Source of the DNA: Clostridia bacterium
Lineage (GTDB): Bacteria > Bacillota > Clostridia > UMGS1883
Direction: 5' to 3'
Assembly (NCBI GenBank): GCA_017547445.1
Contig: JAFYPR010000023.1
Span: 1 to 37,085, forward strand
Length of the DNA: 37,085 bases
Part shown: positions 98-35,760 of the stretch, piece after piece
Layout of the letters: each line of letters opens with the position of its first letter
How positions within the stretch are numbered: position 1 is the stretch's first letter
Notes under the pieces: generated by a model
Told to the model about the DNA's origin: nothing
Seen by the model: only the letters and a program-made list of their open reading frames with translations
Databases searched by the model: none
Made by a program: the position numbers and the translations under genes

Positions 98-126
98 AAC
101 ATCCCGAGCATTCGCTCGGGATGTTT
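98..126 (+). terminator. Rho-independent terminator reading rightward
   Basis: An inverted repeat CATCCCGAGC / GCTCGGGATG with a short loop is followed by TTTT on the plus strand. On the minus strand the hairpin is followed by CAGACTG, with no T-run. It therefore fits the end of a plus-strand gene left of the window better than the end of the minus-strand hydrolase at 179. Its right arm closely resembles the one at 8161-8195. Confidence 0.6.
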
Positions 127-132
127 TCCTTA

Positions 133-163
133 ATTACTAATTACTCATTACTAATTGCTAATT
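133..163. repeat. 7-bp AT-rich tandem repeat, copy 1
   Basis: Four tandem heptads ATTACTA, ATTACTC, ATTACTA, ATTGCTA followed by ATT. The same array, preceded by CCTTA, occurs identically at 8201-8231 and in a variant at 23368-23400. It is sandwiched between the hairpin at 98-126 and the stop-codon hairpin at 164-203. Confidence 0.8.
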
Positions 164-203
164 AAGATATGCACAAAATCACTCGTTATTTTGTGCATAT
201 CTT
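164..203. repeat. 16-bp perfect inverted repeat across a stop codon
   Basis: Bases 164-179 pair perfectly with 188-203 (core GATATGCACAAAAT / ATTTTGTGCATATC), leaving an 8-base loop. The TGA stop of the adjacent hydrolase occupies the junction of arm and loop (179-181), so the mRNA hairpin forms from the last coding codons and the first untranslated bases. The paralogue at 8232-8271 has the same structure with two mismatched positions. Confidence 0.75.
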
Positions 204-1384
204 GCAGCTTCGCACATAGCCAATAAGAATGCACCGACACCAAAGTTCTGTGTTGTGTCATAGCTCATAGCCTGTGTTGCATTAGAGCCGATGTGCTGAA
301 CATAGCCTACCTTACCTGTATCATGCAAAGCTACATCCGCAAGATAATTATAACCTGCTAAAGCTGTATCAAGGTATTCTTCCTTATCAAGGATTCCGTT
401 GTTGATACCCCAGAAGAAGCCATATGTAAAGAAAGCTGTACCGCTTGTTTCATAGCCGTAATCGTTGTCATTATTGCCTGTAGGGTAATTCTGAAGCATG
501 CTCTGTGTCCAGAAGCCGTTGCCCTGACTATCCTTTAACTGGCAAGCCTTGATGGCAGGAGCCATTTCCTTATATGTTGTAAGGAACTCATCATAATGCT
601 TATATGCAGAGGGCATATCGGCAAGTACTTTACAAAGACCGGCAAATACCCAGCCGTTACCTCTTGCCCAGAAGTTCTTTTCATTTTCGTGACCGGGATT
701 AGGCATTAAGGGGTATACAAAATTTGCATCACGGAAGAAAAGGTTTTTGTAATCGGTGGGATCAGAATAGCTTGCACCCTCCTTAAGTCTTGCAGTTGTT
801 GTATAGCCTTCTTCGCTTACAGGAATACCGCCCTTGCCGTCATACATCAGCTCCTTTGCATAACGGAAGTACTTATAAAGTGCATCAAGATACTTTTCGT
901 CACCTGTCTGCTTATAAAGCTTTGTGAATACGGGCATAACCATGTAAAGAGCATCTGCCCACCACCAGTAGTTGTCAACATCCTTTTTCATCTGCTCTTC
1001 AACAACATACATAACTCTGTCTATTGTTGCACCGTCAACACCTGCATTGTAAAGGTCAATATAAACCTGGAAGCAGATTTCCCAATCGCCGAAAATTACA
1101 GCTGCGCTGCCCTGTGTCTGGTTATATTCCCAGAACCACTCAGAGGGGTCAGCGTCCGAATCATTACCCTTCCAGTTACAGAAGTTCGCCCAGTCAATTG
1201 TATACTTAAGTAAATCCTTATCACCTAAAAGCTTGTAAACCTCCATGTTGCCTGTGTGATAAGCCGCCTTATCCCAAAAAGCAGGATGTGCGCCACCGTG
1301 CCAGTCAACAAAATCGTAATTTTCCTGCCAGAAGGTATCCGCTCTTCTTATTTTCTCTACTGCAGCTTCATACGTAAGTGCCAT
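179..1384 (-). CDS. Cytoplasmic GH88/GH105 family unsaturated glycuronyl hydrolase
   Basis: A 401-residue protein with the signature of the (alpha/alpha)6-barrel family containing YteR/YesR and bacterial unsaturated glucuronyl hydrolases. These remove 4,5-unsaturated uronic acid from the non-reducing end of oligosaccharides left by polysaccharide lyases. The motif WWWADALYMVMP (about 140-151) carries Asp144, matching the catalytic Asp of YteR; YNQTQGS (87-93) and HENEKNFWARGNGWV are also family-like. The length equals a single catalytic domain. There is no signal peptide, so it should act inside the cell on imported oligosaccharides. AAGGAGAG lies just before the ATG. It follows the HAD gene by 15 bases, probably in one transcript. 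The closest relative in the window is the C-terminal domain of the protein at 8247-13286. Family GH105 rather than GH88, and the exact substrate (rhamnogalacturonan, xanthan, ulvan or other), cannot be decided by eye. Confidence 0.88.
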   Translation of the reverse strand: MALTYEAAVEKIRRADTFWQENYDFVDWHGGAHPAFWDKAAYHTGNMEVYKLLGDKDLLKYTIDWANFCNWKGNDSDADPSEWFWEYNQTQGSAAVIFGDWEICFQVYIDLYNAGVDGATIDRVMYVVEEQMKKDVDNYWWWADALYMVMPVFTKLYKQTGDEKYLDALYKYFRYAKELMYDGKGGIPVSEEGYTTTARLKEGASYSDPTDYKNLFFRDANFVYPLMPNPGHENEKNFWARGNGWVFAGLCKVLADMPSAYKHYDEFLTTYKEMAPAIKACQLKDSQGNGFWTQSMLQNYPTGNNDNDYGYETSGTAFFTYGFFWGINNGILDKEEYLDTALAGYNYLADVALHDTGKVGYVQHIGSNATQAMSYDTTQNFGVGAFLLAMCEAARYAQNNE

Positions 1385-4236: not shown

Positions 4237-7200
4237 ATGAAAAAAGCTATCTCATTTTTATTGATTTTCGCATTACTTGTAACCGCCCTTCCCCTTTCGG
4301 CAGCCGCTTCAGGGGAAGAATTTACTCAAAAGGAATTAAATAACGATCTTAGGTATGTTATTGATGCCACCGACACGGTAAGCCACCACGGCTACACCTA
4401 CGACGTAGACTATCGTTTGAATGTAAAAACAGGGGAAATTCTGAGCATATCCTTCCCCAATAACAATGTTGTCGGTAACTACATAACAATCCCGCAAACA
4501 TTGGCAGGCTATACAGTTAAGGGTATCGGCAAGGAATTATTCAAGCAGCGTTACTGGCTCTGCGAGGTTATTTTGCCCGAAACTGTGGAATATATCGGTG
4601 AAGATGCCTTCAAGGAATGTGTAAATCTGTATGTTGTTAAAATGGAAAATCCCGAAAAAAGTCAGTTGAAGCACATCGGAAGCAATGCCTTCAATGATTT
4701 AAAGCTGTTGTTTGAAGCACCCATATATGACGGCTTGGAATATATCGGTGAAAATGCATTCTCAGGCACAGAGGCTATCGAGGATATTACTCTTCCCGAA
4801 AGCTTAACTCACTTAGGCGCATATGCATTTTATAATTCCAAGCTCAAAAATGTCACAATTCCTGAGGATTTAACACACATCGGTGCATATGCATTTCATA
4901 AAACTCCCTGGCTGGAAAATTACGATGCAGACTTTGTGGTTGAGGGCAATTACGTACTCATTGCATATAAAGGCGACGAAACTGATGTAGTATTGCCCAA
5001 TAACATCTTTCATATTGCTGACAAGGTTTTTGCCGCAGCCCCTATTACAGGCATCACCTTTAACAAAAGGCTTAAAACAATCGGCGACAGCGTATTCGAA
5101 GGCTGCTCCTATTTAACCCATGTCAGTATTCCCGACACTGTTGAAGCTATAGGCGAAGGGCTTTTCAAAAACTGTAAGGCACTTACAGCAGCCTCCCTTC
5201 CTTCGCACTTAACCCATATCCCCGCTTACACCTTCCAGAACACACGTCTTTTGGAATTTGATTTTTCAAAAATTGAAACCATAGGCTCATACGCCTTCGG
5301 AAGCACCCGCCTTTCGGGAGATTTCACACTCTCCTCACCCATGACATACGTTGGCGACCACGCCTTTTACGGCACAAGCTTCACATCGGTTTCGGTAACG
5401 GATAATGTGTATCTTGCCGACTATGCTTTTTCCCAGTCAACAGGCATGTACGGTCCATCTCCCACAATTACAGAAGTAAATATTGATCTGAGCGTTAAAC
5501 AAATGGGCGGTGAGGTTTTTTACGGCACACCCTGGTACAATGCTCAGAATACCGAATTTTTAATTGTGGGTGACGGCATTTTAATTAAGCATTTTTCAAA
5601 TGCACGTATAGAGCAGCTGATTGTTCCCGATACAGTAAAAGCAATAGCCTCTCAGGCATTTTTAAATACTGCAGGCTATGGGGAAATCATATTGCCCGAC
5701 ACAATTACACATTTAGGCGATTATGCATTAGCTTCTGCCAATGCAGACAAAATTGTGCTTCCCGATACCATCACCGAAATGGGCAAGGGTGTTTTCCAAA
5801 GCTCCACGGTCAAAACCGTCGTATGGCCCGAAAACATAACCGATATCCCCGACTATACCTTCTATCAGTCAAATATTTCATCCTTTGATTTTTCCCATAT
5901 CACTTCAATAGGTGACTATGCCTTTTATAACCCCAAATTTTTAAATGTCACCATCGGAGACTCCGTAAATAAAATAGGCGACTATGCTTTCCGGGGCGGC
6001 AGGGTAACACTTCATCATCTGCCCGAAAGCATGGGAGAATACCCCTTCGGCAACAGCGATACGGCTACATGGAGTATTATCCCCGAATATTATGTGGACG
6101 AGGATGTTTTTCCCTATAACAAGGACGAGGATTATTTAATCCTCCCCGACTGGGTTGACTTCAGCGTATATGTCAACATCACCCCCGAAATCATCGAAAC
6201 AGGTGTTGACTATGTAGTTGTAAAGTTTGCTTCCTATCCTCCCAAGAGCCTCGGCTCCTATTACGGCTCAGGCTATCAGACAATTGACTCCTCCCACTTT
6301 AAATGGCTTGATGAGCAAACTATTAAAATTTCCGATATTTTAGATTGCAACAATCAGAGCATCCGCTTTTTTGAGCATTACAGCGGTTATATAACCTTCC
6401 AATATAACCCCATATATTTAACAGGCATGGGAAGCAGTGATGTCAGTTTTTCCTTATCAAATATCAAATCAATAGGCGCAGATGCACGAAGCACGGCATA
6501 TACAGATTATTTCTTAACCCGTATCCGCTCTCAGGTTGATGAGGTTACACCTACCTTTACCCCTACAACGGGACAAACCTTTGAGCTTTATGCTGATGAA
6601 AGCTGCACCCAATACCTGGGTAATACCATTTCTCTTTCTTATGACCCCGTGACGGTATGGGTAAAGGTCACCTCCCAGAACAATAAGAATTCCGCGGTAT
6701 ACAAATGGGTTTTCGAGTATTATTATCTTGCAAATGCTCCCGCATTTGATATAAAGGAAACGCATTTCAAGAACAGTCTTGACGTTACCATTTCCTCCAC
6801 ATTGGAGGATGGCATGATTTATTACACAACAGACTCCACCGAGCCCTCCATGACAAACGGTTATTTGTATGATGGCGCAATCACCATTACGGAAACTACA
6901 ACCTTTAAGGCAATTGTTTACGCTCCTCATACAAAACCCTCCACCGTTACCGCAATGACCTATACTCTTGCCCGGGATATGGAAATAACTGATGCTTTCC
7001 CAAAGGGCGACAGTGCCACAATTTCCATTTCTCCCCCCACTGTTATCTGCGAGAAGTATTTAACCGCCCACCTTTCTTCTGATGGTGAAAGCTGGGACAG
7101 CACCCACGAGGTTTATATCTACCCCGGGTCAAACACCTTCTCACTTTACGGCTTGTCTCCCGACACAAAATACTATGTAAAAATTACTCTTCCAAGTGCC

Positions 7201-8157
7201 TCAATAACCTCAAATGTGTATTCCTTTACAACAAGCAGCTTTAATTCAAAAACAGGCTTTTCTTACACCTCAGAGGGTTATATAACAGGTATGCCCGAGG
7301 GTGATGGATGCACTGTTCCCGAAAAAATCGGCACTACAAAAATTGTGGGCATTGCTCCTTACGCATACGATTACGTATACGGCACAATCACAATCCCCAA
7401 AACAATAACCGATATTTCTCCCATAGGCGCAAATGCCTCCATAAGCTTCAGTGTGGCATCTGCCAACAGTGTATATAAATCCGATAACGGCTCACTTTAC
7501 AATAAGGATATGACAAAGCTTATACGTGCAGGCTTTATGGGCAAATCCAATAAAGAGATGGTATTTACCGTACCTTCAACTGTTAAGGAAATCGGCGATT
7601 TTGCTTTTTATGACACATACTTTACATCCGTTACCTTAAACGAAGGTCTGGAGACAATCGGAAGCAACGTTTTCTATGGCAGCGCTTTGGATATTATAAG
7701 AATACCCTCATCCGTTACCCATATGGGCGAAAACTTTGCTGCAGGCAGAAATACAGCCGTAATTTTCTTAGGCGCAACACCTCAGTGCAGTAAGAATACA
7801 TTTGGTGAAAACGTTGTCCTTTATTCCCGCATTGAAAACACCACTCTTTATGATAAGAGTGTAAGGCTTACGGCAAATGCACTCTCCGATTTTACAAGCT
7901 TCTTTAAACCCTCCGTTTATTCTAATTCCGTTGATGTTTCCTGGTGCAGTGAAGTCGATTTTGACGAAAATACCGCAGTCATATGCAAAGTGTTGCATAC
8001 AGACGGAACAATTGAAGTTTTAACAAAGCTTCTTTCCGAATGCTACAGTAATGATTGCTTCTTTAACACTAAATCAAAAATTAAATCAGTTAAAATCTTC
8101 TTCTGGAACAAAGATAATCTTTCGCCCTATGCATACAGTGAGGAAATAAATTTCTAA
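4237..8157 (+). CDS. Exported BspA-like leucine-rich-repeat surface protein
   Basis: A 1306-residue protein with signal peptide MKKAISFLLIFALLVTALPLSAAAS. Residues of about 80-640 are LRR_5/BspA-like repeats, with recurring phrases such as IGEDAFKEC, LPESLTHLGAYAFYNSKL and IPDTVEAIGEGLFKNC. About 830-900 resembles a chitobiase/beta-hexosaminidase C-terminal-type domain (GMIYYTTDSTEPS, then ITITETTTFKAIVYA). About 905-1005 resembles fibronectin type III (LYGLSPDTKYYVKITL). About 1005-1180 is a second LRR_5 block. The C-terminal 120 residues are unassigned. AAGGAG lies 9 bases before the ATG and the gene is coupled to the transglutaminase-like gene. BspA-like proteins commonly bind host or plant surface molecules; no cell-wall sorting signal or SLH domain is visible, so the mode of attachment is unknown. 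Confidence 0.88.
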   Translation: MKKAISFLLIFALLVTALPLSAAASGEEFTQKELNNDLRYVIDATDTVSHHGYTYDVDYRLNVKTGEILSISFPNNNVVGNYITIPQTLAGYTVKGIGKELFKQRYWLCEVILPETVEYIGEDAFKECVNLYVVKMENPEKSQLKHIGSNAFNDLKLLFEAPIYDGLEYIGENAFSGTEAIEDITLPESLTHLGAYAFYNSKLKNVTIPEDLTHIGAYAFHKTPWLENYDADFVVEGNYVLIAYKGDETDVVLPNNIFHIADKVFAAAPITGITFNKRLKTIGDSVFEGCSYLTHVSIPDTVEAIGEGLFKNCKALTAASLPSHLTHIPAYTFQNTRLLEFDFSKIETIGSYAFGSTRLSGDFTLSSPMTYVGDHAFYGTSFTSVSVTDNVYLADYAFSQSTGMYGPSPTITEVNIDLSVKQMGGEVFYGTPWYNAQNTEFLIVGDGILIKHFSNARIEQLIVPDTVKAIASQAFLNTAGYGEIILPDTITHLGDYALASANADKIVLPDTITEMGKGVFQSSTVKTVVWPENITDIPDYTFYQSNISSFDFSHITSIGDYAFYNPKFLNVTIGDSVNKIGDYAFRGGRVTLHHLPESMGEYPFGNSDTATWSIIPEYYVDEDVFPYNKDEDYLILPDWVDFSVYVNITPEIIETGVDYVVVKFASYPPKSLGSYYGSGYQTIDSSHFKWLDEQTIKISDILDCNNQSIRFFEHYSGYITFQYNPIYLTGMGSSDVSFSLSNIKSIGADARSTAYTDYFLTRIRSQVDEVTPTFTPTTGQTFELYADESCTQYLGNTISLSYDPVTVWVKVTSQNNKNSAVYKWVFEYYYLANAPAFDIKETHFKNSLDVTISSTLEDGMIYYTTDSTEPSMTNGYLYDGAITITETTTFKAIVYAPHTKPSTVTAMTYTLARDMEITDAFPKGDSATISISPPTVICEKYLTAHLSSDGESWDSTHEVYIYPGSNTFSLYGLSPDTKYYVKITLPSASITSNVYSFTTSSFNSKTGFSYTSEGYITGMPEGDGCTVPEKIGTTKIVGIAPYAYDYVYGTITIPKTITDISPIGANASISFSVASANSVYKSDNGSLYNKDMTKLIRAGFMGKSNKEMVFTVPSTVKEIGDFAFYDTYFTSVTLNEGLETIGSNVFYGSALDIIRIPSSVTHMGENFAAGRNTAVIFLGATPQCSKNTFGENVVLYSRIENTTLYDKSVRLTANALSDFTSFFKPSVYSNSVDVSWCSEVDFDENTAVICKVLHTDGTIEVLTKLLSECYSNDCFFNTKSKIKSVKIFFWNKDNLSPYAYSEEINF

Positions 8158-8160
8158 CAA

Positions 8161-8195
8161 AAAATCCCGAGCTTTTGAAAAGCTCGGGATTTTTT
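8161..8195. terminator. Bidirectional rho-independent terminator
   Basis: A perfect stem AATCCCGAGCTTTT / AAAAGCTCGGGATT is followed by T6 on the plus strand and on the minus strand by T6 (the complement of the A-run at its left edge). It lies between two convergent genes, 3 bases after the stop of the LRR gene and about 50 bases after the stop of the large hydrolase, and can serve both. Confidence 0.9.
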
Positions 8196-8200
8196 CCTTA

Positions 8201-8231
8201 ATTACTAATTACTCATTACTAATTGCTAATT
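8201..8231. repeat. 7-bp AT-rich tandem repeat, copy 2
   Basis: The same four heptads as at 133-163 (ATTACTA, ATTACTC, ATTACTA, ATTGCTA, ATT), again preceded by CCTTA and flanked by a terminator hairpin on the left and a stop-codon hairpin on the right (8232-8271). Confidence 0.8.
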
Positions 8232-8246
8232 AAGATATGCACAAAA

Positions 8247-11200
8247 TCACTCGTTATTTTCCGCATATCTTGCAGCTTCACAGCACGCAAGAAGGTAAGC
8301 GCCTACACCGAAGTCCTGTGTAGTGTCGTAGGGCGTTGCCTGTGTTGCGTTGGAGCCGATAGGCTGAACATAACCAACCTTACCCGAAGAGTGAAGAGCA
8401 ACATCCTTCAGATAGCCCCATGCACGTACAGCGGGTTCAAGGTAAGTTTCCTCATCAAGGAAGCCGTTGTTGATACCCCAGAACAAGCCGTATGTGAAGA
8501 ATGCCGTACCGCTTGTTTCGTAGCCTTCATTATTGCCGTTATTACCAACGGGGTAATTCTGAAGCATACTCTGTGTCCAGAAGCCGTAGCCGTCAGAGTC
8601 TGTCTTCTGACAAGCAATAATCGCAGCTGCCATTTCCATATATGTGTTGTAGAATTCGTCATAATGCTCGTAGGTTGCAGGCATATCAGATAAAACCTTT
8701 GCAAGACCTGCAAATACCCAGCCGTCGCCTCTTGCCCAGAAGTTCTTTTCATTTTCATGACCGGGGTTGGGGTTTAAGGGATATACATAACCTGAATCAC
8801 GATAGAAGAGATATGCATAATTATCGGGGTCAGAATACTGCGCACCATTCTTAAGCGATGCACTGGTTGTATAACCATCGGCACTTGTAGGAATACCGCC
8901 GGGGCCGTCATACATATATTCCTTTGCGAACTTGAACCACTTATAAAGAGCATCAAGATACTTTTCGTCTTCTGTATGCTTATAGAGCTTACTCATAACA
9001 GGCATTACCATGTAAAGAGCATCTGCCCACCACCAGAAGCCGTCTTCTTCCTTGGATACCTGGTAGTCCATAACCTCAAATACTCTGTCAACATTTGCAT
9101 CTGCTACGCCAAACTCGTACATATCAAGATAGCTCTGGAAGCATATCTGCCAGTCACCGAAGAGCACCGCATCAGAGCCCTGTGTCTGGTTATAGCCCCA
9201 TGTCCATCTTGACGGGTCACCTGTATAGTCGTTACCCATCCACTTGTTGTAGTTAGCCCAGTCGATAGAGTGCTGGAGATAAGTCTCATCTTCTATAAGT
9301 CTGTAAACCTCCATGTTACCTGTATGGTAAGCAGCTCTTGCCCAGAATGCAGGGTGAATGCCGTTTGTCCATGTGGAGGGTGAGTAATTACTCTGCCAGT
9401 AATCGTTGGCTTTTCTTATTGTTTCAACCGCACTGTCATATGTGGGAAGCATATTGTAAACCTCTTCAGACATATATCCCGATACGGGAACATCCTTAAC
9501 ATATATCACATCTGCAACAGGCTCTATATTACCCGTCCAGAGGTATATAACGCTGTTCTTGTGAACTTCTGCGTTATATGCAATGCTCTTTGAGAAGGTT
9601 ACCTCTTCACCTGTACGGCTATAGATTGTCTCCCCTTCAGTTACCGCATTTGTCAGTTCGCCATCACCGTTATAGTCAGCGATTATAATCCTGACAGTTT
9701 CATCTGTCTTTTTAGTGTTAAGAACCTTTGCCGTAGCAGTAAGAGTGTAGCTGGTCTGTTCAAAGTTATCAGCCTTAATCTTAACAGCTAAATCACCCTC
9801 AATAGCTTCCTTCATAACAAAATAGAGGTGAATTTCCTGATTAAGACTGTTCATTGCAATGCTCTGACCTATTTCAGTTACATCACCTTCAATTTTGTCA
9901 AGCTCATAAAGATTACCGAGGTACTCTCCATAGCTTTCATCAAGTGTAAAGGATGAACCGAAAGCCTTGTTTATTCTCTTTTCCTCGTCAAGCTCGCCAT
10001 CTTTATAGATATAAAGCACCAGATCGCCGCCAACCTGTCCGTTGTATTCGGGGAATACAGTTACATTTGCAGTAGCCGTTACATCTGTTCCTAAGATAGT
10101 ACCCTCCACTTCAAATACGCCCTTTTCTGCGTAAGCGGAAGAGTCAATTGTTTCCCACTGTACCGCAAAGATTGCACTATGGTTTCCGGAATAAACATTC
10201 AGTACTCTCGGAAGTGTAGGTGCTTTACCCACGTATGTTCTTACACTTACATTGTCGCATCTTACATCCTCTGCCTTTTCGTAAACAACTTCAATCACAT
10301 CTTCGCCTGTTACGGCATCAATGGTAAGACTGGACAATTCCTCATTTACTGCATAAATTGTATTATTATAGCTTACAAGAGCATCCGCTACGTTATATGT
10401 GTAGCCTTCGCCCATTACTCCGTAAACTACAGAAGAAGAAATCTCATTACCCTCTGTATCTACTCTCTTTACGATAATAGGTGTACCTTGCTGATAGATA
10501 ATAAGCTCGGGAGTTTTGCCCTCTTCTCCTGCTTCGCTTGTCAGAATATATGCCACATCGCTGCCGCAGGTAAGAAGGAAGCTGAAGCCCTCTGCAGCAT
10601 GCTCCTTTACAAATTCTGTAACATCCCATTGCATATAGAAGTCCTTCATCTGACCTGTCGCAATCTGTGTATCCAGAAGCTCACCCGCCGTTGAAACACC
10701 CAAATCAGTAATAGTGCCGCCCAACACTTCGGAGTAGTTATTCATAGTAACAGCATCAACATCCCAATTGTCACTATCTCCGGTTAAGCCGTAGCAATAA
10801 TACTCATCATCACCTGCATTATCAACAAGTGTTACATATACACTTAAAATTGCTTTTTCGCAGTTTGCGGCGGATGCAATTTCACCCACGGACATTTCAC
10901 CGGTTCTCATTAAGCCATAACGTGTATATGCCGCACCGTTGTTAGAGGAAACCAACAGCTGTACTTCGCCGTTTATATTAGTGTCGGGGTATTTTCCGCT
11001 AAGCTCAACGTCCTCTGTAATCGCAATTACGGTTTTGGGCATAGACTCATAATCCACCGGCGCATCAGAAGGCTTCTTTGCATTATAAAGCTCTGCTACC
11101 TCACTTGAACTGAGCGCTCTGTCGTAAAGGCGGATTTCGTCCATCTTGCCCTTGAATTCGGGGTTTGTCGATGCATTGGAAGAATCAAATGCCCACTGAG

Positions 11201-13286
11201 TCTTACCAATCCAGAAGCCGTAATTGGAGCTCGAGGAGGATACAGCGGCACCAAAGGGACGTGTAAGTGTTGTAAGGGAATTATCAAACTCATATCTTTC
11301 AACACCGTCAATATAGATATGCGGTGTATAATATTCTCCCTCTGTACTCTTTTCATAGGTTACAACAAGATGTGCCCATTTGTCCGCAAAGGGATTGTCT
11401 TCTAAGGTTGCGGAAATAAGAGAATTTTCATCGCTGCTGCCTGATGCAATACCTCTGTCCTGGAAGGTTGTTTCACCTGTGGAAGGCACATATCTGAAGA
11501 AGAAGGAGTCTCTCAAATCATTACCAAAGTCAAAAAATCTCTGCAAGCCGGATGCGTAACGATAGTCAGTATCCGCATAAATCCATGCCGCATATGTAAA
11601 TTCTTCTGCTCCCTCATTGATTCCGTCAGGCATACGGATAGCAGGACCGGAGAAAAATCTGTTTCTCTGGTTTCTGCCGCCAAGTCCCACATCTTCACCG
11701 ATAATCGCACCGGGGAAATTAAGCACACCGTCTGTAACAGTCATTTTTCTTTCAACAACTGTTGTTGTACCGCCGCCACCCCAGTTACCGCCGGAAGAAA
11801 CCTCCTGATAAAGGTTATGTACACTTGCATTATTGTTATTACCGGAAGCATCAATAATCGTATCGGGATTTTCTGCGTCATCATTAAAGGTATAATATGC
11901 CAGAAGCCCCTGATTAAGTGTGCTTGTATCCTTTTTGATAACTACTACCTTAACCTCAACATAGCTGCCATCCTCTGTGTAACCGCCTGCCATGAAGCTT
12001 CCTTCCTGGGCATACTTATCGGAAGAGATAACATCCCAGGTAACGCCAATTTTCTTTTCAGCGCCTGTATTGTAGTATACAGTTACATTTTCGGGCAAAA
12101 GAGGATAATCACCCGCAAGAGTTACCACATCCTCTGCATAGTAGCCGGTTACTTCAATATTGCCCTCAGGACAGGTTGTTTCATAAAGGTATTTTACCTG
12201 ACCCTCTGTCAAGCCGCGGTTATAGATACGGATTTCGTCCATCTGTCCCTTGAAGTCAGGGTTATCAGCCACTTCCTGATTTGTTGCACCCCAGACTGTA
12301 CGTCCGATAAAGAAGCCGTTGTTTACATCTGTCAATTCACCCAAATCGGAAAGGGCACGTGTGTAAACATCTGTTGTGGTAAGCTCGGGAACCTCTTCAC
12401 CGTTCACATAAACCTTTGTCTCAAAATAGCCGGTCTCCTCATTCTTTTCATAAACGAATGTAAACAGACCCCAGACATCCGTAAATGGACGGGCGGAAAT
12501 TGTATGCTCCTGATATACGTTTACACTTCTGTCCTGGATACGTAAAAGACCGGAAGAAGATGTATATCTGGCAAAAATACTGTTATAGGGGTTGTTTGTG
12601 CCGCTGCCAAGATTACCGAAGTCAAAGAATCTTGTCATTTTGTTTGCAGAAGAGTATTCACCGTCAGCCTTTATCCATGCAGAGAAGGAAAAGCTCTCTA
12701 CGTCGGAGTTGATATTATTGGGTAATTTCAATGCCGCACCCAGATAATTAGTCCACCAGCTGCTTGTGTTACCGGGGAAGGAAGCAGTACCGTCCTCTGT
12801 AATTGTAAGAACGTTATTTGCCCCGGGGTTCCAGCCGCCGTCACCCTGAACAACAGTATTCAATACTCTTGCATCATTTCCGTTACCCGAAACATCGGGA
12901 ATAACTGAAGGAGTGGAGCCGATATTATTAAAGTCATAATATGCAATAAGTCCCTCTGTAACCTCTATATCAGAATAAGCCTCCATAACTATGACCGTTG
13001 TTTTAACCTCATAGCCTGACTCACTTACGCCTGTTGCCTCAAAGGTGCCCACAGAGCTAAGCAGTCTTTCGTCAAACATCTGCCAGGTAACGAATTCCAC
13101 CGAAACCGTTCCGTCAGATAAAGTCAGAGCCACACTCTCCGGAAGAACGGGAAGTGAGCCTACAGTTGTAACTGCATCGCTTATTTCATAGCTCACGACC
13201 TCTCTGTCGTCAGCCAATACAGTTGGCATAGCACCAATCAGCATTGTCAAAGCAAGCAGTAAGCTTAAAGCTTTTTTCATTTTCAT
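8247..13286 (-). CDS. Exported multidomain protein: Ig-like, LamG and C-terminal GH88/GH105 hydrolase
   Basis: A 1679-residue protein. The signal peptide covers about residues 1-25 (MKMKKALSLLLALTMLIGAMPTVLA). An Ig-like (Big_4-type) domain spans about 30-105, a LamG/concanavalin-like domain 110-370 (GLIAYYDFN, MDEIRIYNRGL), a second Ig-like 378-450 and a second LamG 458-735. A DNRLRE/CBM96-like beta domain covers about 752-931, a MucBP-like segment 933-1003 and a third Ig-like region 1005-1078, followed by beta-rich spacers. A complete GH88/GH105 catalytic domain covers about 1280-1679, with WWWADALYMVMP and the expected catalytic Asp near 1422. The modules suggest an extracellular enzyme held on a polysaccharide by its carbohydrate-binding-like domains, cleaving terminal unsaturated uronates outside the cell. 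No sortase, SLH or dockerin signal is visible. AGGAGG precedes the ATG by 9 bases. Domain names other than the signal peptide, LamG and hydrolase are tentative. Confidence 0.87.
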   Translation of the reverse strand: MKMKKALSLLLALTMLIGAMPTVLADDREVVSYEISDAVTTVGSLPVLPESVALTLSDGTVSVEFVTWQMFDERLLSSVGTFEATGVSESGYEVKTTVIVMEAYSDIEVTEGLIAYYDFNNIGSTPSVIPDVSGNGNDARVLNTVVQGDGGWNPGANNVLTITEDGTASFPGNTSSWWTNYLGAALKLPNNINSDVESFSFSAWIKADGEYSSANKMTRFFDFGNLGSGTNNPYNSIFARYTSSSGLLRIQDRSVNVYQEHTISARPFTDVWGLFTFVYEKNEETGYFETKVYVNGEEVPELTTTDVYTRALSDLGELTDVNNGFFIGRTVWGATNQEVADNPDFKGQMDEIRIYNRGLTEGQVKYLYETTCPEGNIEVTGYYAEDVVTLAGDYPLLPENVTVYYNTGAEKKIGVTWDVISSDKYAQEGSFMAGGYTEDGSYVEVKVVVIKKDTSTLNQGLLAYYTFNDDAENPDTIIDASGNNNNASVHNLYQEVSSGGNWGGGGTTTVVERKMTVTDGVLNFPGAIIGEDVGLGGRNQRNRFFSGPAIRMPDGINEGAEEFTYAAWIYADTDYRYASGLQRFFDFGNDLRDSFFFRYVPSTGETTFQDRGIASGSSDENSLISATLEDNPFADKWAHLVVTYEKSTEGEYYTPHIYIDGVERYEFDNSLTTLTRPFGAAVSSSSSNYGFWIGKTQWAFDSSNASTNPEFKGKMDEIRLYDRALSSSEVAELYNAKKPSDAPVDYESMPKTVIAITEDVELSGKYPDTNINGEVQLLVSSNNGAAYTRYGLMRTGEMSVGEIASAANCEKAILSVYVTLVDNAGDDEYYCYGLTGDSDNWDVDAVTMNNYSEVLGGTITDLGVSTAGELLDTQIATGQMKDFYMQWDVTEFVKEHAAEGFSFLLTCGSDVAYILTSEAGEEGKTPELIIYQQGTPIIVKRVDTEGNEISSSVVYGVMGEGYTYNVADALVSYNNTIYAVNEELSSLTIDAVTGEDVIEVVYEKAEDVRCDNVSVRTYVGKAPTLPRVLNVYSGNHSAIFAVQWETIDSSAYAEKGVFEVEGTILGTDVTATANVTVFPEYNGQVGGDLVLYIYKDGELDEEKRINKAFGSSFTLDESYGEYLGNLYELDKIEGDVTEIGQSIAMNSLNQEIHLYFVMKEAIEGDLAVKIKADNFEQTSYTLTATAKVLNTKKTDETVRIIIADYNGDGELTNAVTEGETIYSRTGEEVTFSKSIAYNAEVHKNSVIYLWTGNIEPVADVIYVKDVPVSGYMSEEVYNMLPTYDSAVETIRKANDYWQSNYSPSTWTNGIHPAFWARAAYHTGNMEVYRLIEDETYLQHSIDWANYNKWMGNDYTGDPSRWTWGYNQTQGSDAVLFGDWQICFQSYLDMYEFGVADANVDRVFEVMDYQVSKEEDGFWWWADALYMVMPVMSKLYKHTEDEKYLDALYKWFKFAKEYMYDGPGGIPTSADGYTTSASLKNGAQYSDPDNYAYLFYRDSGYVYPLNPNPGHENEKNFWARGDGWVFAGLAKVLSDMPATYEHYDEFYNTYMEMAAAIIACQKTDSDGYGFWTQSMLQNYPVGNNGNNEGYETSGTAFFTYGLFWGINNGFLDEETYLEPAVRAWGYLKDVALHSSGKVGYVQPIGSNATQATPYDTTQDFGVGAYLLACCEAARYAENNE

Positions 13287-13893: not shown

Positions 13894-13996
13894 TGTCTCT
13901 TCCCTAAAGCCCACTTCGCGGGACAGTGGGTGAAAAGACATCCGCAGATGTCCTTTTGCAAAGCGTCTCCCGATTTGCAAAAGCAGCCCTGTCCCC

Positions 13997-14095
13997 GTAC
14001 CTTTGCTGAGCTATCCGAAGCGTCAGCGAGGCGAATAGCTCGTATGCGAAAACTGTCTGCGATTGACGAGCCATTGGCGACGTCAGAGCAGGTAC
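13997..14095. repeat. 99-bp palindromic insertion in copy A
   Basis: It begins GTACC and ends GGTAC, with imperfect inverted ends (GTACCTTTGCTGA against TCAGAGCAGGTAC, outer five and inner four bases pairing). Inside, GAGCTAT / ATAGCTC forms a 7-bp stem. It is absent from the other copies of the 127-bp repeat, which run straight from CTGTCCC to the tail, so it is best read as a secondary insertion. Confidence 0.55.
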
Positions 14096-15009: not shown

Positions 15010-15136
15010 TAAAACCCACAACACGGGACAGTGGGTGAAAAGACCTCCGCAGAGGTCCTTTTTGAAATCGTCTCCCGATTTCAAAAAGCAGCCCTGTCCC
15101 TGTTCCTCTTAAAACTGTTGTAATTACTTAATCAAA
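15010..15136 (+). repeat. 127-bp structured repeat, copy B
   Basis: Complete copy between panB and panC. The outer stem pairs 15020-15031 with 15094-15104 (AACA-C-GGGACAG / CTGTCCCTGTT, one bulge). Hairpin I is GACCTC (15042-15047), CGCA, GAGGTC (15052-15057). Hairpin II pairs 15059-15070 with 15076-15087. Compared with copy C, hairpin I has a paired A-T to C-G change and hairpin II has several paired changes. The 3' tail runs into panB and encodes its last three residues and stop. Confidence 0.88.
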
Positions 15137-15966
15137 GCTGCCTGCAACCCACTTAATGCTTCTTCATCCATTTTATATGTATATTCTTCCGTGGGGAATA
15201 CGCCCGTCTTTACTTCTTTATCGTACTTTTTAAAAGCATTTACCATAGCTTCCCCTAAATTATCATACTTCTTTACAAACTTAGGGGTGAAGTCAGAGTA
15301 CAAGCCTAACATATCCTGATAAACGAGCACCTGACCGTCACAGTTTTTACTTGCACCGATACCGATTGTGGGTATGGTAAGCATATTCGTTATAATATCC
15401 GCCAGAGGCGCAGGTATTCCCTCAAGCACAATGGCAAATGCACCTGCTTCTTCTACCGCCTTTGCATCTGCAATTATCTTTTTTGCCGCCTCTGCACTCT
15501 TCCCCTGAATTTTAAATCCGCCGAATGCCTTTACGGACTGTGGTGTCAATCCCACATGACCGCATACGGGTATACCTGCCTTTACGATGGCACTTATCTG
15601 CTCTTTAACGTCAACTCCGCCTTCAAGCTTAACCGAGTCTGCACCGCATTCCTGTATAAATCTGCCTGCATTTTTCACTGCATCATAAATGCTTGTCTGA
15701 TAGCTCATAAAGGGCATATCCGCCACAACAAGAGCATTTTCGGCACCTCTCACAACTGCCTTTACGTGGTGTATCATGTCCTCCATTGTAACACGGGTGG
15801 AGTCGGGGTATCCGAGCATTACCATGCCTAAGGAATCGCCTACAAGGATAGAATTAATGCCTGCCTTATCAACTAATTTCGCAGTTGAATAATCATATGC
15901 CGTAAGCATAGTTATCTTTTCGCCCTTTTTCTTCATTTCTGCAAAGGTCTGTGTTGTATTTTTCAC
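15124..15966 (-). CDS. panB: 3-methyl-2-oxobutanoate hydroxymethyltransferase
   Basis: Makes ketopantoate from 2-oxoisovalerate and 5,10-methylene-tetrahydrofolate, the first committed pantothenate step. The 280-residue TIM-barrel protein shows [32 protein letters not shown] near the N-terminus (Mg2+/substrate loop), [11 protein letters not shown] and [10 protein letters not shown] with the likely catalytic Glu. The start is GTG at 15966, preceded by GGGAGGA at 7-base spacing; the overlapping ATG one base upstream runs straight into TGA. The extreme C-terminus (LIK-stop) is encoded by the end of repeat copy B. The gene is 18 bases downstream of the radical SAM gene. Confidence 0.97.
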
Positions 15967-16603: not shown

Positions 16604-16730
16604 TAAAACCCACAACACGGGACAGCGAGTGAAAAGACATCCGCAGATGTCCTTTTGCAAAACGTCTCCCGATTTGCAAAAGCAGTCCTGTCCCTGCTCC
16701 TTATAAAAATGTTGCAGTTACCTAATCAAA
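16604..16730 (+). repeat. 127-bp structured repeat, copy C
   Basis: Complete copy between tatD and the radical SAM gene. It starts TAAAACCCACAACAC and ends GTTGCAGTTACCTAATCAAA. It holds the outer GGGACAG / CTGTCCC stem, hairpin I GACATC-CGCA-GATGTC, and hairpin II TTTTGCAAA / TTTGCAAAA around CGTCTCCCGA. Length is identical to copies B and D. It ends 13 bases before the tatD stop. Confidence 0.88.
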
Positions 16731-16743
16731 TTAAACTAAAGCC

Positions 16744-23362: not shown

Positions 23363-23367
23363 CCTTA

Positions 23368-23400
23368 ATTTCTCATTACTAATTGCTCATTACTCATTAC
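23368..23400. repeat. 7-bp AT-rich tandem repeat, copy 3
   Basis: Heptads ATTTCTC, ATTACTA, ATTGCTC, ATTACTC and partial ATTAC, preceded by CCTTA as in the copies at 133 and 8201. It lies between a perfect hairpin and a fragment of the 127-bp repeat. Confidence 0.75.
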
Positions 23401-33827: not shown

Positions 33828-33851
33828 TTTAATTTTCCTTTCTTTTGCTAC

Positions 33852-33978
33852 TTTGATTAGGTAACTGCAACAGTTTTATAAGGAACAGGGACAGGGCTGC
33901 TTTTTAAAGTCGGGAGACGACTTTAAAAAGGGCATCTGCGGATGTCTTTTCACCCGCTGTCCCGTGTTGTGGGCTTTA
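33852..33978 (-). repeat. 127-bp structured repeat, copy D (reverse orientation)
   Basis: Complete copy between leuD and leuB, oriented opposite to A-C. Read on the minus strand it starts TAAAGCCCACAACACGGGAC and ends GTTGCAGTTACCTAATCAAA. Hairpin II (CTTTTTAAAGTCG / CGACTTTAAAAAG) is a 13-bp stem, with changes on both arms relative to copies B and C. Hairpin I has one unpaired change (GATGCC). In the leu mRNA the element therefore appears in the sense opposite to that in the pan mRNA. Confidence 0.88.
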
Positions 33979-34497: not shown

Positions 34498-35760
34498 TTA
34501 GTCCTCCTTAGGTGCTGTAATGTAGCCTGTAAGCGCACTTTCTGCCGCAACACGGGGAGATGCAAGATAAACCTCACTGTCCACATGACCCATTCTGCCT
34601 ACAAAGTTACGGTTAGTTGTTGCAATTGCTCTCTCGCCGTCAGCGAGTATCCCCATATGCCCGCCAAGACAGGGTCCGCAGGTGGGAGGTGATACAATGC
34701 AGCCTGCATCCATAAATATGTTAAGAAGACCTTCATTCAATGCTTCCTTATAAATCCCGGGTGTTGCAGGTATAACGATAACACGAAGATTTTCCTTAAC
34801 CTTTTTGCCCTTTAAAACCTCTGCAGCAATACGAAGGTCGGTAATTCTGCCGTTTGTACAGCTTCCGATTACAACCTGGTCAAGCTTTACGCCAAGCTTT
34901 TCGGCTTCATCTGCCGTCTTGCCGTTGGAAGGAAGATGTGGGAACGCGACCATGTAAGGCACTTCGCTTAATTCAATATCCATTACGTATTCGTAAGGAG
35001 CATCAGGGTCGGGAGCATATGTTGTATATTCCTTAACGCCTGCTTCTTCCATATAAGCAATTGTCTTTTCGTCTGCAATAAAAATACCGTTTTTACCGCC
35101 GGCTTCAATTGCCATATTTGCAATTGTAAAGCGGTCATCCATAGTAAGTGCCGATACGCCGTCACCGAAAAATTCCATAGACTTGTAAAGAGCACCGTCA
35201 ACGCCTATTTTAGCAATAATGTATAAGATAAGGTCCTTACCGGAAACGCCCTTTTTAAACTGCCCCTTAAGATTAAAGCCTATGGCAGAGGGCACCTTCA
35301 TCCACGCCTTCGCCTTGCTCATACCAATAGCCATATCGGTTGAGCCTACGCCTGTAGAAAATGCATTGAGCGCGCCGTATGTACAGGTATGGCTATCTGC
35401 GCCGATAACTGCATCGCCCGCCTTTACAATACCCAATTCGGGCAAAAGTGCATGTTCAACACCTGCACAACCGCCCTCGAAGAATTTCTTAATACCGTGT
35501 TTTGCGCTGAATTCTCTTACTTGCTTACAGTTCTGCGCACTCTTTATATCCTTTGTAGGCGTAAAGTGGTCAAGGACAAAGCAAACCTTATCAGGGTCTG
35601 TAATTGTAAGATTGCCCTTCTCAAAAACATTTACCGCAACGGGACCCGTTACGTCGTTTGCCATGGCGAGGTCAAGATTGATTAAAACCAGATCGCCCGC
35701 CTTTACAGAATCAAGACCTGCCTTGCGGGCAAGAATTTTCTGTGTCATAGTCTGTGCCAT
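34498..35760 (-). CDS. leuC: 3-isopropylmalate dehydratase large subunit
   Basis: Aconitase-family subunit carrying a [4Fe-4S] cluster; isomerises 2- to 3-isopropylmalate. The 420-residue protein has [23 protein letters not shown], the cluster ligand in VIGSCTNGR (about 301) and the pair CGPCLGGH (about 361 and 364), then [18 protein letters not shown] precedes the ATG. It is the first gene after the promoter at 35809-35837. Small relatives include homoaconitase-type enzymes, but adjacency to leuD and leuB supports leucine synthesis. Confidence 0.97.

Follow-up and report, generated by a model that had tools for sequence, protein, structure and literature searches.

Probable copying of a gene end between two paralogous GH88 hydrolase genes, and a dispersed heptamer array at stop codons, in gut Clostridia

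Two paralogous hydrolase genes of an uncultured gut Clostridia bacterium, S and L, end in an identical block of 69 bases, which is a composite of about 29 bases peculiar to this pair of genes and 40 bases of a dispersed heptamer array. From a comparison with orthologous gene ends, we infer that the end of S was copied onto L by a recent, short conversion, with respect both to the direction from S to L and to conversion as the process. The last codons of S, its stop codon, a hairpin spanning that stop codon, the array, and part of the terminator would have been transferred by short ectopic gene conversion. The explanation as a whole, in which the end of S was converted onto L and the dispersed stop-codon array acts as a termination spacer, is given a probability of about 0.68.

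The window, i.e., the whole stretch of 37,085 nucleotides that was analysed, is contig C10 of a metagenome-assembled genome (G000) of 1.58 Mb in 122 contigs, which is 60 % complete. Its named close relatives are Clostridia assembled from the gut metagenomes of goat and roe deer. Orthologues of S and L are present in four genomes of the genus (G000, G001, G002, and G003); the S copy of G003, broken between two contigs, was excluded from the identity comparison. A search of the whole window against Rfam yielded no family above its gathering score. The features used in the analysis are listed here.

179 to 1384, minus strand: gene S, encoding a GH88 family hydrolase of 401 aa (open reading frame; Pfam PF07470, Glyco_hydro_88, E = 5.9e-60), with the stop codon TGA at 179-181
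8247 to 13286, minus strand: gene L, a paralogue of S encoding a protein of 1679 aa with Laminin_G_3 and Big_4 domains and a C-terminal GH88 domain (open reading frame; Pfam; 71.4 % DNA identity to S over GH88)
124 to 192, minus strand: S copy of the 69-base identical run (longest exact match)
8192 to 8260, minus strand: L copy of the 69-base identical run (longest exact match)
164 to 203, minus strand: perfect palindrome across the stop codon of S, with 16-base arms (188-203, coding; 164-179, mostly 3' flank) and an 8-base loop; RNA fold of -19.1 kcal/mol, z -7.5
8232 to 8271, minus strand: the same palindrome at L, imperfect, with GCGGAA in the coding arm and a flank arm complementary to the GCACAA of S; fold of -14.8 kcal/mol with one internal mismatch
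128 to 163, minus strand: heptamer array of S, five units ending in AATTAAGG (unit count)
8196 to 8231, minus strand: heptamer array of L, with the same sequence as at S (unit count)
23363 to 23398, minus strand: another array of the family, the third in the window, located between two genes with a hairpin after it; present in G002, absent in G001
98 to 125, minus strand: terminator-like hairpin of S with a stem of 12 bp, without a T-run in the window; contig C73 shares the hairpin exactly and continues with a T-run
8159 to 8195, minus strand: hairpin of L resembling a terminator, with T6; the convergent gene at 4237-8157 shares it

The identical run covers the last codons AAT AAC GAG and the stop codon TGA of both genes as well as about 55 bases past the stop. 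A preliminary description had put it at roughly 68 bases (123-192 and 8193-8260), which proved right to within one base. S (401 aa) and the C-terminal domain of L are 71.4 % identical in DNA over the aligned GH88 regions. In the last 600 coding bases, 60-base windows range from 36/60 to 53/60 identical positions, and the longest exact coding match, with the last 20 bases left out, is 30 bases. The probability of an exact run of 69 bases at 71 % identity is approximately 1e-10 (0.714^69), so the run is no product of chance. The adjoining terminator arms had likewise been described as matching: CCCGAGC..GCTCGGG is indeed common to S and L, which differ, however, in their loops (GAAT vs. TTTTCAAAA) and in the surroundings of the stems.

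In gene sense, the block reads AAT AAC GAG TGA, TTTTGTGCATATCTT, and the array AATTAGC AATTAGT AATGAGT AATTAGT AATTAAGGAAAA, after which the hairpin follows. A blast search with the block found 18 places in G000, and at those beyond S and L, only the array or one hairpin was matched; a match on contig C53 extends about 15 bases further at 83 %. The roughly 29 bases around the stop codon (the AATAACGAGTGATTTTGTGCATATCTT part) are found in full only at S and L. The suspicion that the block is simply a repeat occurring at many unrelated genes thus holds for the array but does not extend to the part around the stop codon. No match was obtained in a distant blastn search of a plasmid collection.

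The palindrome across the stop codon probably carries a trace of its origin. At S, its outer arm repeats the gene's own end in inverted form. Two coding bases of the L stem differ from those of S, a single mismatch is present in this stem, and the flank arm of L pairs with the S codons GCA CAA rather than with the GCG GAA of L itself. The RNA folds of S and L in G002 were left out of this comparison.

The DNA identities of S between G000 and G002 (83.9 %) and of L between the same genomes (82.1 %) are both higher than that between S and L (71.4 %), which places the duplication before the species and makes the paralogues older than the genus. The end of S in G002 is orthologous to that in G000 (AATAACGAGTGATTTT..ATATCTTAATTAGCAATTA..ACATCCCGAGC), with the same loop AACGAGTG, the same start of the array, and the same terminator stem. 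Both hairpin arms have changed, however, the array has 21 fewer bases, and the longest exact match between the two ends (24 bases) lies in coding DNA. The S genes of G001 and G003 carry an unrelated palindrome and another heptamer. The L orthologues of G001, G002, and G003 all end differently, and the S-type end at L, being present in G000 only, is thus new in the lineage of G000. Just before the identical run, L of G000 has kept a GAA codon that is also present in L of G002 and G003, which indicates that the tract starts at about this point. On the left, homology beside the tract is present (GAAGCTGCAAGATATGC); on the right, it consists of the terminator stem alone. The paralogues are older than the tract, and the tract is discordant with orthology, as is expected of gene conversion. 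Of the three explanations offered in the preliminary description, recent gene conversion is supported: the genes predate the genus, the S-type end is common to S of G002, and L carries it in G000 only.

Palindromes with at least 12 net matches across a stop codon were found at 4/132 gene ends in G000, 12/446 in G001, and 17/452 in G002, and at 1/62 in G006, 0/100 in G008, and 0/54 in G014; at internal control positions, searched with slightly different settings, they numbered 0/1811. Many of them lie between convergent genes and are simply bidirectional terminators. A further group is AT-rich, does not resemble terminators, and has arms that co-vary between species. At one orthologous site (P5), the arms are TGATAACTAATTGATT in G002, TACAATGATAACCAATT in G001, and TGATTACTAATTG in G003 (one mismatch), each with a matching right arm, and the arms at S also change together between G000 and G002. 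Such co-variation could result from selection on the RNA or from template switching during replication, a process described in PMC8794818. As in the template-switch mutations presented there, which make and keep hairpins, perfect inverted copies of local sequence with co-changing arms are seen here, but at stop codons and sometimes beside dispersed repeats, whereas the cases described there concern RNA genes.

It is conceivable, though unlikely, that a recurrent process operates in the genus in which replication, folding back at the stop codon, would write an inverted copy of the last 12-20 bases of the gene and then jump to a heptamer array, or a chain of hairpins, and a terminator at another place in the genome, the arrays being portable tuners of termination that would spread by a better end of transcription. 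If so, a single step would equip a gene with a hairpin across its stop codon, a spacer rich in stops, and a terminator. Support comes from site P1, where G001 has the palindrome as well as the array and three relatives have neither, from site P2, where both are present in G001 and G003 and neither in G002 or G000, and from heptamers of different families that abut palindromes. Against it stand the weak association of palindromes with a following repeat, as judged by blast in the sampled genes (6/15 vs. 91/522, p = 0.04), and the fact that most arrays lack a palindrome. Because of the weakness of this link, it was set aside as the main explanation. Stop-spanning palindromes (at least 12 bases) were not enriched at gene ends with AATKAG arrays compared with those without, either in G000 (1/10 vs. 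3/123) or in G002 (0/13 vs. 10/123).

An assembly artefact, in which the end of L was built from S reads or vice versa, is improbable. In a fragmented metagenome assembly that is 60 % complete, the S/L case could be a chimera; S lies about 100 bases from the contig end, the first 97 bases of the window are a dispersed repeat, and the apparent true neighbour of S is on contig C73. The block at L, however, is located within the contig and flanked on either side by sequence specific to L, so that two false joins would be needed, and the end of S is confirmed by its orthologue in G002. As to the contig start itself, positions 1-97 are 99 % identical to C8:118-216, and contig C73 opens with the same 28-base terminator of S followed by the apparent neighbour of S as in G002; this discrepancy reflects either a strain variant or a misjoin.

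There is little probability that the same mobile 3' module reached S and L independently, without any recombination between the genes. In favour of this, the array half is dispersed, and stretches of up to 40 bases are identical, unit order included, between unrelated gene ends in G002, which points to copying rather than to local slippage. Nevertheless, the approximately 29 bases around the stop codon, found in full at no other place in G000, have their orthologous counterpart at the end of S in G002, and an independent insertion would not carry the codons and the hairpin arm of S. The mobile 3' module of the preliminary description is supported for the array half, which is dispersed and has been gained and lost between species. 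Purifying selection holding both 3' ends identical, with the hairpin or the array as an RNA control element of fixed sequence, is very improbable, for despite the strong fold (z -7.5) and the palindromes that stay paired while their sequence changes, the orthologues have not kept the sequence, as seen in the altered arms, the shortened array, and the 24-base coding match of S in G002 and in the unrelated ends of S in G001 and G003. Strong selection on the 3' sequence, also proposed earlier, and selection on the exact array or hairpin sequence are accordingly not supported.

The array that forms part of the shared block belongs to a family with the consensus (AATKAGN)n-AATTAAGGAAA, in which the AATTAAGGAAA end is frequent. 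In 147 genomes, with overlaps counted, the 20-base pattern AATKAGNAATKAGNAATKAG gave 40 matches in G000, 61 in G002, 124 in G008, 96 in G014, and 8 in G004, 1 in G003, and 0 in G001. It is carried by 9 of the 147 genomes, with more than one copy in five alone and 0 or 1 in the other 142, and a reversed control pattern gave 0 matches in G000, G002, G004, G008, and G014. The distribution of the array is therefore patchy within one bacterial family. G001 has other heptamers in the same position, of the GTAATAAG, ATGCAGA, and AGGTAAT types.

Sixty distinct array loci were analysed (23 in G000, 32 in G002, and 5 in G004), 54 of which consist of 3 to 5 units. A stop codon of an open frame on the same strand is located between 70 bases upstream and the array end at 57/60 loci, and at 28 loci, the stop codon is formed wholly or in part by the array. 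Using a tighter window, a same-strand stop was found at 53/60 loci vs. 12/60 on the opposite strand, 634/4680 random placements, and 542/2340 random intergenic placements. A hairpin of at least 6 pairs follows within 60 bases at 54/60 loci, while 6/60 lack one by that measure; several of the hairpins have no clear T-run, and arrays of the type seen at SITE5 are inverted pairs flanking a hairpin instead of one sense copy. Placement at stop codons holds for the genus of the window and for the five loci of G004, and is looser in G008 and G014. In these last two genomes, of another genus, AATTAGG/AATGAGG arrays (L122-L132) are followed by a longer conserved AATAYTGRCGGGGCAG-like sequence; in one place, the two occur three times at 111-base spacing, apparently as a larger repeat element. 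A dispersed repeat of about 117 bases, with two inner hairpins and an outer inverted repeat GGGACAG..CTGTCCC, is also present four times in the window (13919-13998, 15022-15137, 16616-16737, and 33850-33966) and in many further copies in the genome.

Fourteen orthologous sites (S, L, SITE1-6, SITE8, and P1-P5; SITE5 with two genomes only) were compared, and arrays had been gained, lost, or replaced among them. Any heptamer array is missing from at least one relative at 13 of the 14 as judged by eye, S being the exception, in a set picked for an array or palindrome present in one genome. SITE4 holds an array in G002 but is empty in three relatives; at SITE3, three species each have a different array, and G003 has none. 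At SITE6, the same terminator (GGCGGTC..GACCGCC) is present in G000, G001, and G002, and an array lies between it and the stop codon in G000 and G002. Counted by eye, it is 1 nt from the stop codon in G001, which has no array, and approximately 24 nt and 42 nt from it in G000 and G002, respectively. At SITE1 and P5, a different dispersed repeat occupies the same point in G000. At L164 (G000:C112:13100-13700) and L247 (G000:C112:12200-12700), a CCCTCAGTC..AGCTCCCTCGGGGAGGGAGCC hairpin repeat is found where relatives have heptamer arrays, which indicates that several repeat families use the same points. Another class of dispersed repeat, chains of small hairpins with GATAT-type spacers, fills gene junctions in G001 and G002 (L174, G001:C18:4900-5500; L134). 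At L175 (G000:C116, near 34971-34999), the reading frame was apparently shifted by a small deletion just before an array, which now provides the stop codon.

The position of the arrays suggests a role in termination. T-rich hairpins without an array start at a median of 6 nt after the stop codon in G000 (n = 21) and 5 nt in G002 (n = 97), and about 90 % of hairpins without an array begin within 27 nt. With an array, the median distance from stop to terminator is 36.5 nt in G000 (n = 8) and 36 nt in G002 (n = 13), a greater distance that arises partly by construction since the array fills the space. Li and colleagues reported that in E. coli, ribosomes repress the terminator tR2 when it lies near a stop codon, and that termination is maximal at distances beyond 27 nt (PMC4824070). 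Measured against that distance, the length of the arrays and their stop codons would suit them as ribosome-clearing spacers. In the proposed mechanism, a dispersed array would settle directly 3' of a stop codon, ahead of a terminator-like hairpin, and provide a spacer of 25-45 nt with stop codons in all frames that would hold the terminating ribosome off the hairpin. Its arrival might thereby strengthen termination behind the gene. This role of the array in freeing the terminator from the ribosome is deduced from the distances and, by analogy, from the E. coli experiment.

The array resembles the stop-codon heptamers GGGAATC and GGGGA(T/C)T of Xanthomonas and Nostoc, the function of which is not established (PMC4692102), in its position and its number of units; its sequence and its partner hairpin are different. 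Common features are units of seven bases, a preference for four units, the sense strand, a position near or overlapping stop codons, and use of the same gene junctions with a sequence that varies between related species. Unlike those heptamers, which are G-rich and form G-quadruplexes, the arrays described here are A/T-rich (AATKAGN), often with the AATTAAGGAAA end and then a hairpin, and their AAT[TG]AGN units contain no G-tract of three, as a quadruplex would demand. The TAACTGA direct repeats of Beggiatoaceae, cyanobacteria, and Bacteroidetes (PMC4679880) are also stop-rich intergenic heptamers with a patchy occurrence and length steps of seven, but their unit is another one, and those of Beggiatoaceae lie upstream of start codons, whereas the present arrays lie behind stops. 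The pneumococcal SPRITE, BOX, and RUP elements of the MITE class (PMC10969869) are likewise small dispersed intergenic repeats, one of them terminator-like, that nest in each other; unlike these, the array shows no terminal inverted repeats or consistent target duplication, as judged by eye at empty and filled sites. A literature search, in which only a minority of subscription papers was covered, listed no paper that presents such arrays in Clostridia in its title or at the start of its abstract.

In conclusion, heptamers at stop codons, already known from Xanthomonas and Nostoc, also occur in uncultured Clostridia of the gut. Four species allow filled and empty orthologous sites to be compared there, and the repeat has a fixed place between stop codon and terminator. 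The hairpin scar at L reveals which paralogue would have been the donor of the conversion tract. A terminator whose distance from the stop codon is 1, about 24, or 42 bases, as at SITE6, makes the function of the repeat testable with reporters.
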